64,000 nucleotides of DNA from Amphibalanus amphitrite (Eukaryota > Arthropoda > Thecostraca > Balanomorpha > Balanidae), in NCBI RefSeq assembly GCF_019059575.1, contig NW_024881676.1, forward strand, positions 788,285-852,284, in the 5' to 3' direction. The notes beneath the pieces are model-generated. The model was not told where the DNA came from. It did not search any database and saw only the letters and a list, made by a program, of their open reading frames with translations. Both the position numbers and the translations under genes were made by a program. The first letter of the stretch is position 1. Every line of letters starts with the position of its first letter. Below, piece by piece: positions 11,727 to 60,400 of this stretch.

Positions 11727-14700
11727 TCACTTTTTCACCCGCTGCGGGACTGGCACGCCCAGTGCGACACACACCTCATCCCGGACCGGGCGCACCGCGT
11801 CCACGGCCTCGTTCCAGTCTGTGTCGCTGAGCAGGCTCTGGGCGCGCTCCAGCGCCTCCTCGGAGACGCCCTCCAGCTCTCCGTGCGTCAGCAGCGTCTC
11901 GAAGAGGCCTCCGGCGGCGGCGCGTCGGATCCGCGGGAACCGGTGGCACAGCAGCACCATCAGCTGGCCCAGACAGCGGCGCTGCACGGCCGCCGGGAAC
12001 TGCATCAGCGCGCACAGCAGGTCCACGCCGGCCAGCAGCTTGTGCGGCTCGCCGCAGCGGGCCAGCTCGGCGCGCACCTGGGAGGTCAGCAGGTCACCCA
12101 GCTCGGCGTCCGAGAACAGCGGGTCCAGCAGACCTGGCAGAGGGAGAAGGGGGTGGTTACGGCAGAGCCCACCAAAACTGGCGAAATGTGCAGGGGAGGT
12201 CACGGGAAGGACGGCAGACCTGTAGGACGGTGTAAGAGGAGGGGTCACGGGAGAGTCGCGGCTATAATTCAGTAAGTGGTGTGGCTCATCCTGTAAATAA
12301 GAGGTGATAAGGCGGCTGGAAGGGTCATGAAACTGCGTGATAGCAGTCATTCGCGATGATTACGCAAGTTGATCATCCCATCCGACACTGGTTCCAGACC
12401 TCGCCATCCCATCCCGTTCCAACCAACCCCTTCCCTCCGCTATACTTTAGGGCCTTGCGCTATACTGACCGCAGTTGAGCAGCGGCTCCAGTGCGCGGAT
12501 CACGGACAGGGTGACGCGGTCCTGCCGGCGGTGCCGCTCCATCACGGCCGCCACCTCTCGGACGAACTCGGCTCGCCCCTCGTCCGGCAGGTGTTTGAGG
12601 TGCCGCTGCAGCTGCTCACTGGCCTGCTGCACCAGCCGCTCGGTGATGCCTCCGGCGCTGACCAGCAGGCCGAGCAGCACCGCCGGGCGGTACACGGGCA
12701 GCGCCAACAGACGCGACAGGCGCGGCAGCGTCTCCCGCTCCGAGCCCCAGTTGATGGAGGCGCACACGGACGCCGGCAGGATCTCCAGCAGGGCGTCCCG
12801 GTCGGGCACGCGCGGCACCGGCGGGTCGGCGTGGAGAAGTGCTGAGAGGGCCGCTCCGGCCACTGACCGGGTGCGGTCGATCTTCTCGACAGCCTGCTGA
12901 CTGAGCCCGGTCATGGTGCGGCGAACCATGTCGTCCGAGAGCAGCTCCGGGCAGGCGCCGGTCACCATCAGAGTGACGCGCTGCGGGACAACGCGGAGAG
13001 GGGCGTTAGGGCCGTGGGCACAACGGATCAAGGGGAGCTGATAGTTGATACATTTCATGATGGGGATGTTAAACAGGAGGGTGGGGGCCTTCATATAAGG
13101 CTCAATCGCTTACCACAAGCTAGCAAATAACACGCAATGCTTCAGCCAGCACAAAAAGTAAGTTGTACAACGTATCGCTGCTAGACAATTATTTCCGCAA
13201 TTTGTACTCGATTGCCTATCACCTTTCCAGCACCCCTGTGTGCCTCCCTCCTTCCCTCCCTCCCTCCTCGTTTCCCAGCATACCTGCAGTCCGGAGATGG
13301 CCGCCTCTCGGATCCAGGCGCCCACGTCTCCCCGGTTGTCGGACGTGTAGTCCTCCAGGCCGGTCAGCAGACAGTCGTAGATCTCCTCAATGTTGGCGGC
13401 GCACACATGACTAGAGCCTGACGGTGAGGATATACACATGCCGTGTCAGGGAGTGAGTCTTGGGAGACCGGGTGACACAGTGCACAGAACAGCGCAATGT
13501 AGATGAATAATCGAGGAGTAAAATAACCTGACAAACCGCCAATAACCCCAGTACCCCAGCTCCCCGTCCCCGGCACTGACCGTCGTCGCTGGCGTCGACG
13601 CCGACGGTGAGGCAGACGTCGGTGACGGCGCTGATGCCGTCGCGCCGACACTCGGCCCAGAGCCGCGTCTGCGGCGTGGAGGCGCAGCACACCAGCAGGT
13701 GCTTCAGCACGCGCTGCAGCTTCCCGGCGAACAGCTTGGCCGGCAGCGAGCCTGAAGGGGAGGACGGACGGCGGGAGGGTACAGTAACAGGACAGCAGCG
13801 GCGACAACGGAAACAGTACTAATTACACGTCGTTTGAACTTTGAATCTATGTAAAGGGTAGCGAAATACAGTAACATTGGCCCACGCGACAATCCCAGCA
13901 GCTTTTGTCACCGTGGATCTATCCATTCCCACTCCTCCACTCAGCTGCCGTAACCTGATGGCTATTCCTACTACGCCTACTGCGTTACTTACCTACGGCC
14001 AGTGCGAACCCGCGCCGGTTATTCTGGCTGTCGCTGTCCACCTCAGCCAGGTACCGGTCGAGCAGTCCGTCCCCGGCGGCCGAGGACGCGGCGTCCCCGT
14101 CCGTGACGTCTCCGCCGCCATCGGACGGGCCGGCCGTCACGTCCGACGGCGAGGCCGTGACGTAGGCGCGGGTGAACGCCGGCAGAGCGGCCACGGCGTA
14201 CCCTCGGACGGCCTCCTCGCGGTGGGTCAGACAGTCGTCCAGCAGCGCCTGCCAGCTGGCTGCGGGGGCAGAGAGCGGGACAATCAGCTGGCTGCGGGGG
14301 CAGAGAGCGGGCGGAGTGCAGTCCACTGGTTGTGACGACGCGGCTGCACGGCACACATTACAGCCCAGGCGCTATGAGCATTCACACTCGGCGACTATCG
14401 GCAGCTGTGGTAGCTATCAGTAGGCCCACGCCCGTAGCAGTTCGACCGACCAACCAACCAAAGTCCAACAAACCAAATTACCGGCCTTACCAGCAATTCA
14501 CCGTCCTGAGTTCAACTGCCCAGTGTCCAACCACCGCATACCCGGCCAACCTGTCTACCAACCTTGTTACTGACCGACCTGTTTTTATCAGCGCTATCGG
14601 TTCCAACGACCCGTCCAGCCTATCACAGTTCCGAGCCGTCCTCAGTAGTCCGTCCTACGGATTATTAGTACAGGATGACGGATCGAGACGGCTGCCACGG

Positions 14701-57417: not shown

Positions 57418-60400
57418 ATGCTGCTCAGACTGGGTTCGGCCGCCGCCCGGTCCGCGAGTCTGCTGCTCCAGCGACGTGCTCACAGGTGAGAGCCAATTAC
57501 ATCTGCCGTGAACAAGTGAGAGAGGTGAGAAGCGCGGCCTCCACCACGGAGCGGCCTCGTGCGGGGGAGAGGTGAGAGCATTGTGAGAGGACGTGTCAGG
57601 GATATACCACGGGAGACACATCAGCGGTGACCCCAGAGAGGTATCAGAGCTAGGCGTAGTCTGAAGGGTTTTAAATAGGATATGTGTACAGTGGATAACA
57701 TTGCCGAGTTATACGAGACGGTCGGGTTTACCAGCCGAATCACGTGGTAAACTGCACCCAGATGCGCGGGTCGTAATGTGTAGTGCGCGCCTGAACTCGC
57801 CGCTCCCTATCAGCAACTGTCTCGCCGGTCCTTTTGAGCTTTCCGTTCTAGTTAGCTCGCTGTCAGAGATGTGTCACACACGCCGGGGTGCTGGCAGATG
57901 TCGAGCCCCGGGCCGAATGGCAAAAACCGACGGAAGTCCGACCCACAGTTCCAGATAGTGAGCTTCTTTCTCTGAAAATGGGCGGCAGTGGCGATATGAG
58001 ACAATTTGTATCTTGCGTGAGTCGGAATCAAACAATGAAATGATCGTTCATCAGTTCGCTCGTTCAGAATTGGGACTCTGGATTGAATCATCCGATCAGT
58101 ACACAGAGCCATGGGCCATGTCTAATCAATCCAGTCCACCGTTTCTTGGATTTGACAATCAGTTCAGTCGCCGCCGCAGATCCATCCAATCAGTACGCGG
58201 CCAGGCAGGCGGAGGAGCCGACATACCTCGTCCGCCTGACCGCCCACATCAAAGTCGAGACGACCGCCCCGCGTGACGCCTCAAGGCTGACGACGGACAG
58301 ACACTAGACAGACAGAAGAACAATGCGGCCGACACATCCTGACATCGGCACCGGAACGTCTGTGTCAGTGACCCCAGGGGAGGTCTCTAATTAGCTCGCC
58401 TGTGCTCATCAGATGCACTGAAATTAACAGCACTATAGAACGTAACACTTCAAACGAATAGTCACAAAAAAATATTTTCAAGTGAGCTAGCATGACTAAA
58501 CCTTATATGACGAATCATGGTCATTCGTTTATTTGAATATCAAAAGACCATACGCGTGAAGGTAGTGGAACGATTTGACCAATCACGTGCAATGTTCCTA
58601 ACGCCAGCCTTGGCCAGTGTCGTTTACAATGCAATCTGCATTGACTCTTCAGTCCCCAGGTCGCTAAAAAATAGCGAATGCACTATCACGAGCTGTCTCA
58701 TCATTCCGATGCGACTCAGCCGACTGCTCATATTAGTATCCCGACTGTCCCTGTCCGGGGTTCGCCGTCGTCCACCGACCGCCGCCTCCCTCATGGCCCA
58801 TGGCCGGCCGGCCCGACCCAAGGTCACAGCCGGTAGTCGGTACCACCGGCACCGACCGCAGAACCCTCCAATTAGCCCGGCGGGCCAGACACCCGGGACG
58901 TCGACACTGAACACACCGGCTCGGGGAGCACACATCCGACTCATAACCCGACAGAACACGTCATAACCCACTGCTAAACGGAGCAAATCCACTAACACCA
59001 AACGGAACGCATCTCGATCCGAGAGATCGATCAAACTGAAACCCGAGCACACACCCGACCAGAACACCAGACGTACCGAATACATACCTAACACACGACC
59101 TATCACCAACCAAACAGAATCAAGCCGGCCGGGTTCCATCGGCGTACGAAACACACCCACAGCTCAGAGTTCAGACTGGGGCGGTGAGCGAGACCGATCC
59201 ATCACACCGTGTGTAGATCGGCCGGTGCCGCGGGGCGTGCCGATCGAACACCGTGACGCCGCCTGATACCGAGCCGGAGGATGCCAATTATGTGGTGTTC
59301 GCAGGGACACACTTAAATACATGCATCTGTCTATAAAAAGGTGACAGAAATGTGAGCCCTATTCCCTACCCGACGCTTTTGTAGGTAGTGCGAATCAGTA
59401 ACAGGTCACTTGTTACCCTCCCTCCCACAGGTGCTCGAGGTCGCCATTAGCACGCGACATGTCCGGCTCGGCGCGCGTCTGGGTGCTGGCCGCGCGGCCC
59501 GAGGGAGCCGCCAAGGCCTCAGACTTCCAGCTGAGGGACGAACCGCTGGCCGAGCCGCAGGAGGGCGAGGTGCTGGTAGAAGCCGAGTTCCTCAGCGTGG
59601 ACCCGTTCATGCGCGCGTTCGCCTCGCAGCTGCCGCTCAACGAGCCCATGCCCGGCACCCAGGTGGCCAGGTGAGCCATCAGGGGGAAAAGATGGGGGGC
59701 AGGGGCAGATTAGGGATGGGGGGAGGGATACACAGATGGGATAGGGGAGGCGAGCGAGTCACAGCTGGTGGCGACGGTCGGGTAATGGGAAAATAATGAC
59801 CGATTTTAGGTGGGAGTACGTCGGTGCTAACAGTGAGCAGAGTTTTAATGACATTCGCCAACATGTCGTGCCCGGACCGACCAAACACGTCCATCGGGAG
59901 AGCTATGCAGATGGACTACCAGAAGAAATTATCATCGACTAACCCATGCATCTGCCGAAAAGGTGATCCAGTACCGCAGTGACCTGTCCCTACACTGCCA
60001 GGCGATGTCACTGCAAACTGGCGGTGAAGCGCCCCGCCACCTCCCTCGGACAGGACGGTGAACCTTGGAGTGACCTGACTTGACCCACGCCCCCTCTGCC
60101 GACAGGGTGGTCCAGTCCCGCAGTGAGCAGCTCCAGGAGGGCCAGCGGGTGCTGGTGGCCGCCGGATGGAGGGAGCGCTCCGTGGTGCCGGCGGCCGGCC
60201 GGCCGGGCGGCGCTCCCGTCATCCCACTGCCGGCCGAGGCGCCCGTCAGCCACTCCCACTACCTGGGCGTGGTGGGTATGACCGGGCTGACGGCCTACTG
60301 CGCCGTGCACGACCTGCTGCGACCGCGCGCCGGCGACACGCTAGTCGTCAACGCCGCCGCCGGCGCCGTCGGATCCGTCGTCGGACAGCTCGGGAAGCTG

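Follow-up and report, generated by a model that had tools for sequence, protein, structure and literature searches.

Tandem copies of exon edges at about one in thirteen sampled splice junctions of Amphibalanus amphitrite look like tolerated duplications

Human CBS carries a 31-bp variable number tandem repeat (VNTR) at the boundary of exon 13 and intron 13 (PMC2630376, PMC5188458), which the accessible portions of these papers describe as variable, with 16–21 units (PMC2630376). Tandem genomic duplication is also an accepted route of intron gain in the accessible portions of two further papers (PMC3443670, PMC2891723); the main text of a study of new introns in Daphnia does not contain the term ‘tandem duplication’ (PMC4202315). 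For arrays that span splice junctions at genome scale, we found no report in the open-access literature under the terms searched. Here, we describe such arrays in a 64,000-nucleotide stretch of the Amphibalanus amphitrite genome (C179:788285-852284, hereafter the window), which holds TBCD-like, DNAAF5-like, glutaredoxin-DEP-DUF547 (Grx-DEP-DUF547), and reductase genes, and in further genes of the same assembly. About one in thirteen of the sampled junctions carries tandem copies of itself in the neighboring intron. This looks like ordinary duplication that gene structure tolerates, a machine dedicated to splice sites being unproven.

Scanning the window for local direct duplications without reference to gene structure (offset 12–400, ungapped, score of at least 16) yielded 15 clusters, against none in four block shuffles, and chance similarity was rejected on this ground. 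Seven of the 15 clusters span a modeled junction, so that 7 of the 72 junctions in the curated set (36 introns in four gene models) are duplicated. An earlier note on this DNA, made from the letters alone, had listed seven duplicated junctions and a triplicated DNAAF5 stop codon; all are present, and the scan recovers the same seven. The list missed degenerate copies at the acceptor of TBCD exon 15 (12134..12251, minus strand), which we identified by eye below the threshold and kept outside the seven counted. On C506, a counterpart contig that is 95% identical to the window by a 1-kb probe, a 46-bp duplication is scored at this acceptor, where the window has degenerate copies only.

The largest arrays lie at donors. 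At the end of TBCD exon 10 (17991..18305, minus strand), five copies of the exon end followed by GTGAG are spaced by 61, 63, 68, and 66 bp, in the same intron as a duplication of the exon 11 acceptor (14253..14311, minus strand; two copies, 32 bp apart). The donor of DNAAF5 exon 4 (34288..34954, plus strand) is present in 19 copies, including the exon's own, at a spacing of 36 or 30 bp, with a last step of 31 bp; the first copy reads GTAAGT and the remaining 18 read GTCAGT. This array is an open frame throughout (34288-34954), and if splicing in fact starts from one of the distal copies, some of the array may be translated, giving a YPPSDGYPAQCQ repeat. The other window cases are acceptors on the plus strand, i.e., DNAAF5 exon 8 (36400..36555; two copies, 116 bp apart) and exon 9 (37065..37141; two copies, 55 bp apart), Grx-DEP-DUF547 exon 9 (50013..50126; 47 bp, three copies by eye), and reductase exon 3 (59951..60145; two copies, 144 bp apart, the extra one without AG). 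The DNAAF5 stop codon marks an exon edge that carries no splice site and lies in 3.1 copies of a 33-bp unit (39021..39123, plus strand), an array that the low-complexity filter dropped. Spacing across all arrays ranges from 29 to 144 bp. The gene models use the copy nearest the exon, which leaves the additional ones within the intron. The earlier note had exon interiors unaffected; they are nearly, though not wholly, free of duplication (1.4% of positions), and 21-bp repeats lie within coding sequence at 9452-9534 and 14124-14163.

Outside the window, we sampled ~298 kb of the source assembly (807.6 Mb, 2644 contigs). A kinase set was built from 20 apparently intron-bearing loci found by kinase matches and chosen irrespective of repeats, of which 18 were used (L030 had no working model and L031 a single exon); a chaperonin set contains five multi-exon loci from chaperonin matches; and an upstream set, drawn from the 130 kb that precede the window, contains 12 exons of two genes identified by eye as kinesin-like and SLC25-like. 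The last two sets were likewise chosen irrespective of repeats. These models come from a gene finder, anchored by profile matches (kinase, chaperonin) or by eye (upstream), with hand edits: one L035 donor, the L045 junctions past position 800, and one L037 acceptor were removed, and the second exon of L034 was set manually. Local duplications span 10 of the 157 junctions of these independent loci (kinase 7/77, chaperonin 2/56, upstream 1/24), bringing the total to 17 of 229; a junction counts as spanned if the duplication covers 6 bp or more on both of its sides. L044 has 16 copies of its exon end, each leading into GTGAGT or a variant of it, L039 carries ~10 copies, and L046 combines a donor array with a 98% identical acceptor duplication.

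Copy number differs between contigs. Between C179 and C506, the counts are 5 and 9 for the TBCD exon 10 donor, 2 and 3 for the TBCD exon 11 acceptor, and 19 and 18 for the DNAAF5 exon 4 donor; among the kinase contig pairs, L044 and L053 have 16 and 14 copies, and L046 and L052 are equal. We infer that these contig pairs are haplotypes. Two of the 17 units, TBCD exon 10 and DNAAF5 exon 4, were searched genome-wide and matched only C179 and C506, i.e., their own locus and its counterpart, which rejects a mobile repeat for these two and bears out, to that extent, the earlier suggestion that no single mobile repeat is at work. Short arrays often cause assembly errors, and an error of assembly or gene modeling could in principle mimic such copies. 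We regard this as highly improbable, given that the copies have diverged (best segments are 75–100% identical), that the same arrays recur, with other copy numbers, on a further contig, and that Pfam fully supports three of the window gene models.

Whether junctions are hit more often than other sequence depends on how duplications are counted. When each gene-body duplication is treated as one event and one founder unit is placed randomly outside pure exon, 17 of 28 events in all sets straddle a junction against 5.6 expected (p 4e-7), and 10 of 19 do so at the independent loci against 4.0 expected (p 9e-4). A reading without any junction preference, in which duplications arise everywhere, exons are purged, and junction cases are simply easier to see through their conserved exon copy, draws on the abundance of local duplications outside genes, where ~119 kb upstream hold 38 clusters and a 38-kb insertion on C506 holds 19, on per-position rates that are alike at exon edges and in GC-rich sequence, and on the weakening of the excess by GC-matching. 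The excess nevertheless survives GC-matched placement, both overall (8.7 expected; p 5e-5) and at the independent loci, with p values per set of 6e-4 for the window, 0.048 for kinases, 0.019 for chaperonins, and 0.83 for the upstream set, where a coding repeat in an unmodeled kinesin-like exon is scored as a non-junction event and lowers the excess. A conservative null that shifts whole arrays also leaves an excess, with 7 of 9 against 2.8 expected in the window (p 0.001; GC-matched 3.5, p 0.0075) and 9 of 14 against 4.7 for kinases and chaperonins together (p 0.006; GC-matched 4.7, p 0.003). Young events, defined by at least 95% identity over at least 25 bp, number seven at junctions, seven in ~157 kb outside modeled genes, which may contain further genes, and none in the remaining noncoding sequence of gene bodies (~61 kb). 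At the GC-rich non-genic density, ~0.7 would be expected at junctions (p ~1e-5), and for the independent loci the count is four against 0.49 (p ~0.0017); this test approximates each junction by a 48-bp zone, and an old many-copy array can hold a young pair. Slow decay of junction copies cannot favor young duplications and is rejected as the whole explanation, since these are in excess too. We consider the absence of any junction preference unlikely.

Our favored explanation, held with only modest confidence, is that these arrays are exon-edge minisatellites, i.e., tandem DNA duplications tolerated since splicing still works from the copy next to the exon, perhaps with more input at edges. Tandem duplication of the DNA itself would multiply a short stretch (~29–144 bp) straddling an exon edge; additional copies would land in the intron or beyond the stop codon and, because the exon-proximal copy would keep working, the duplication would escape the selection that purges exon interiors. 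Besides this presumed tolerance filter, young events, at about ten times their expected number, would require exon edges to gain or retain such duplications more than other DNA does. The arrays would then expand and contract, presumably by slippage or unequal exchange, leading to copy-number differences between haplotypes. Donor arrays have 2–19 copies and acceptor arrays 2–4 (p 0.007; counts entered by hand, with the kinesin-like case and TBCD exon 15 omitted), a difference that fits the biology of splice-site choice. Additional donors that follow the true one should offer it little competition, which could let donor arrays become long, and acceptor arrays plausibly remain at 2–4 copies because the spliceosome meets extra AGs upstream. 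The stop-codon array, being an edge without a splice site, favors tolerance at edges over coupling to splicing. Independently of this explanation, the presence of the duplications, the locus-specificity of two units, the copy-number differences, the excess over the placement nulls, and the difference between donors and acceptors are established.

Several points weigh against tolerance as the explanation. The stop-codon case is single, and the GC-matched excess at the independent loci is modest (10 of 19 against 5.9 expected; p only 0.013). By position, the contrast all but vanishes: of the 205 junctions in the window, kinase, and chaperonin sets, 182 entered this test (introns of at least 150 bp, exons of at least 30 bp), and 14 of these exon edges are copied within the adjoining intron (7.7%; donors 7/89, acceptors 7/93) against 0.2% with matches in foreign introns, a rate close to the 6.0% of positions with a nearby copy in the GC-rich (at least 0.55) part of the 130 kb upstream (82/1357), so that the excess depends on counting events. 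Intron-interior positions give 18 of 298 (6.0%), nine of them from a single array, and 3 of 85 at a GC content of at least 0.55, in a control that omits introns with a duplicated junction. We gave the event-based nulls more weight because, if the exon is to stay intact, only the terminal unit of an array can sit on a junction; readers may judge this differently. Exon-inner 30-mers yielded no clear match (0/179; 3/179 at a rank p of 1/41), which shows that the duplicated units extend only to the exon edge; this control has no bearing on mutation rate. Finally, the GT of the donor copies departs from that of the functional copy in 3 of 142 letters against ~13% in other columns (permutation p 0.008 for seven arrays from five junctions, 0.007 when each junction contributes a single array, and 0.018 for distinct alleles). 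Retention beyond what tolerance alone predicts hints at constraint, though the copies of an array share ancestry. For acceptor copies, AG is retained in 17 of 18 letters against 88% elsewhere, a sample too small to judge.

Some of these points speak instead for a process directed at boundaries, either a duplication hotspot coupled to transcription or splicing or a weak selective advantage of having 5′ splice sites in rows (e.g., for U1 recruitment). The junction excess, above all in young events, the occurrence at donors and acceptors alike, the retained GT, and the large donor arrays are all in its favor. It accounts poorly for the stop-codon array, for the small number of extra acceptors, and for per-position rates that are not elevated, and the GT signal comes from few arrays whose copies are related by descent. 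Reading frame argues against it as well. If the nearest extra copy were used, the frame would shift at 10 of 16 junctions, a stop would follow at 4, and an uninterrupted frame would be kept at just 2 (DNAAF5 exon 4 and L047), with some frames assigned by eye and the kinesin-like case excluded; extra copies are therefore unlikely to serve protein production. We rejected the idea that they are protein-preserving spare sites on this basis, and the spare splice sites proposed in the earlier note find little support. A boundary-directed process is thus a minority possibility in our assessment, and we are equally doubtful of its stronger form, a genome-wide and still active multiplication of boundaries in this lineage (duplication hotspot and/or weak 5′ splice-site selection), with ~7% of junctions having GT-keeping intronic copies. 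The earlier note had raised genome-wide amplification of boundaries, and the association does extend beyond the window; targeting of boundaries is unsupported, since exon edges and GC-rich sequence are duplicated at similar rates. The junction scan it proposed for the whole genome, run here on the ~298-kb sample and the window, divides in the same way between an event-based excess and per-position similarity.

The same note had suggested that such duplications seed new introns. Intron gain by tandem genomic duplication was reportedly described by Gao and Lynch in 2009. If the arrays were intermediates of this kind, AGGT-containing tandem duplications would be creating introns by the accepted route mentioned at the outset. 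That route turns exonic sequence into a new intron, whereas here an existing junction is copied into an existing intron in each case; the window gene models need no extra intron, and no intron gain was seen. We consider this explanation very unlikely.

All introns of the four modeled window genes are GT-AG, and their spliced translations contain no internal stops. The TBCD-like gene (11731..23367, minus strand) has 15 coding exons and Pfam domains ARM_TBCD_2nd and TFCD_C; the DNAAF5-like gene (24694..39043, plus strand) has 13 coding exons with TPR_DNAAF5 and HEAT_DAAF5; the Grx-DEP-DUF547 gene (44188..50235, plus strand) has nine exons, a provisional start codon, and DUF547, Glutaredoxin, and DEP; and the Zn-dehydrogenase-like reductase (57420..60907, plus strand) has three exons with ADH_N_2 and ADH_zinc_N. 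Pfam support is full for the first three and begins at exon 2 for the reductase, whose exon 1 is uncertain and determines 2 of the 72 window junctions. At the acceptor of Grx-DEP-DUF547 exon 6 (47875-47950), there is a shorter possible duplication (CCCCTGGCGGCCA), sub-threshold and uncounted, and a GAGTCA-rich repeat in an intron of the same gene (48400-48800) is the main non-junction array in the window gene bodies. TBCD intron 10 contains a long near-perfect palindrome, seen by eye (16990-17210), and no C506 match passed the filter between ~15583 and 17987. The long DNAAF5 intron 3 holds two open frames on the same strand that, by eye, resemble a chemoreceptor (26648-28156) and a GH31 glucosidase (29251-32391).

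Identity between C179 and C506 rises stepwise along the window, from ~90–96% (1–23.8 kb) through 98–99% (24–40 kb) to 99.9% (40–64 kb). Between the ends of TBCD and DNAAF5, C506 has ~38 kb of sequence absent from the window (L005–L009, joined coordinates ~27283-65633), with 19 tandem-duplication clusters; within it lies a TAGGTTAGG array (L009:4062-4383), a motif associated with arthropod telomere repeats that, together with the gene content, would fit an arthropod. Conversely, ~2.2 kb of the window (2639-4884) has no C506 equivalent and represents a polymorphic insertion, overlapping a 727-aa minus-strand open frame that by eye resembles the reverse transcriptase of a non-LTR (long terminal repeat) retrotransposon.

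If about one in thirteen junctions carries such copies, this genome offers a natural experiment on the choice among near-identical competing splice sites and a gauge of how far gene structure tolerates tandem duplication. The arrays are also a warning for annotation, as the gene finder called array copies as exons, and the excess of young duplications makes the cause of exon-edge duplication a testable question.

Among known systems, introners likewise affect gene structure genome-wide; they are transposable and intron-creating, and in the accessible portion of the source one element serves many genes (PMC9860276), whereas every array described here repeats an exon edge of the gene in which it lies, and for the two of 17 units searched (TBCD, DNAAF5) the same unit did not occur at many loci. 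With intron gain by tandem duplication, as the available portions of the reports present it, our arrays have in common that short gene segments with splice-site-like sequence are duplicated; they differ in that exonic sequence becomes a new intron there, and an existing junction is copied here with no new intron seen (PMC3443670, PMC2891723). On the acceptor side, there is a precedent in a single polymorphism, where the junction is duplicated, one of two sites is strongly preferred, and the product is kept; the splice sites given here are those predicted by the gene models. The human CBS VNTR, as far as the accessible text describes it, resembles our donor arrays in its ~30-bp tandem units across exon end and donor and in its variable copy number. 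The DNAAF5 array includes 30-bp steps, and the units described here hold an exon end and a splice site, with copy numbers that differ between the presumed haplotypes. The CBS repeat concerns one gene, while here 17 of 229 sampled junctions are affected, at donors and acceptors. Thus, the novelty lies in prevalence, human CBS supplying single precedents.

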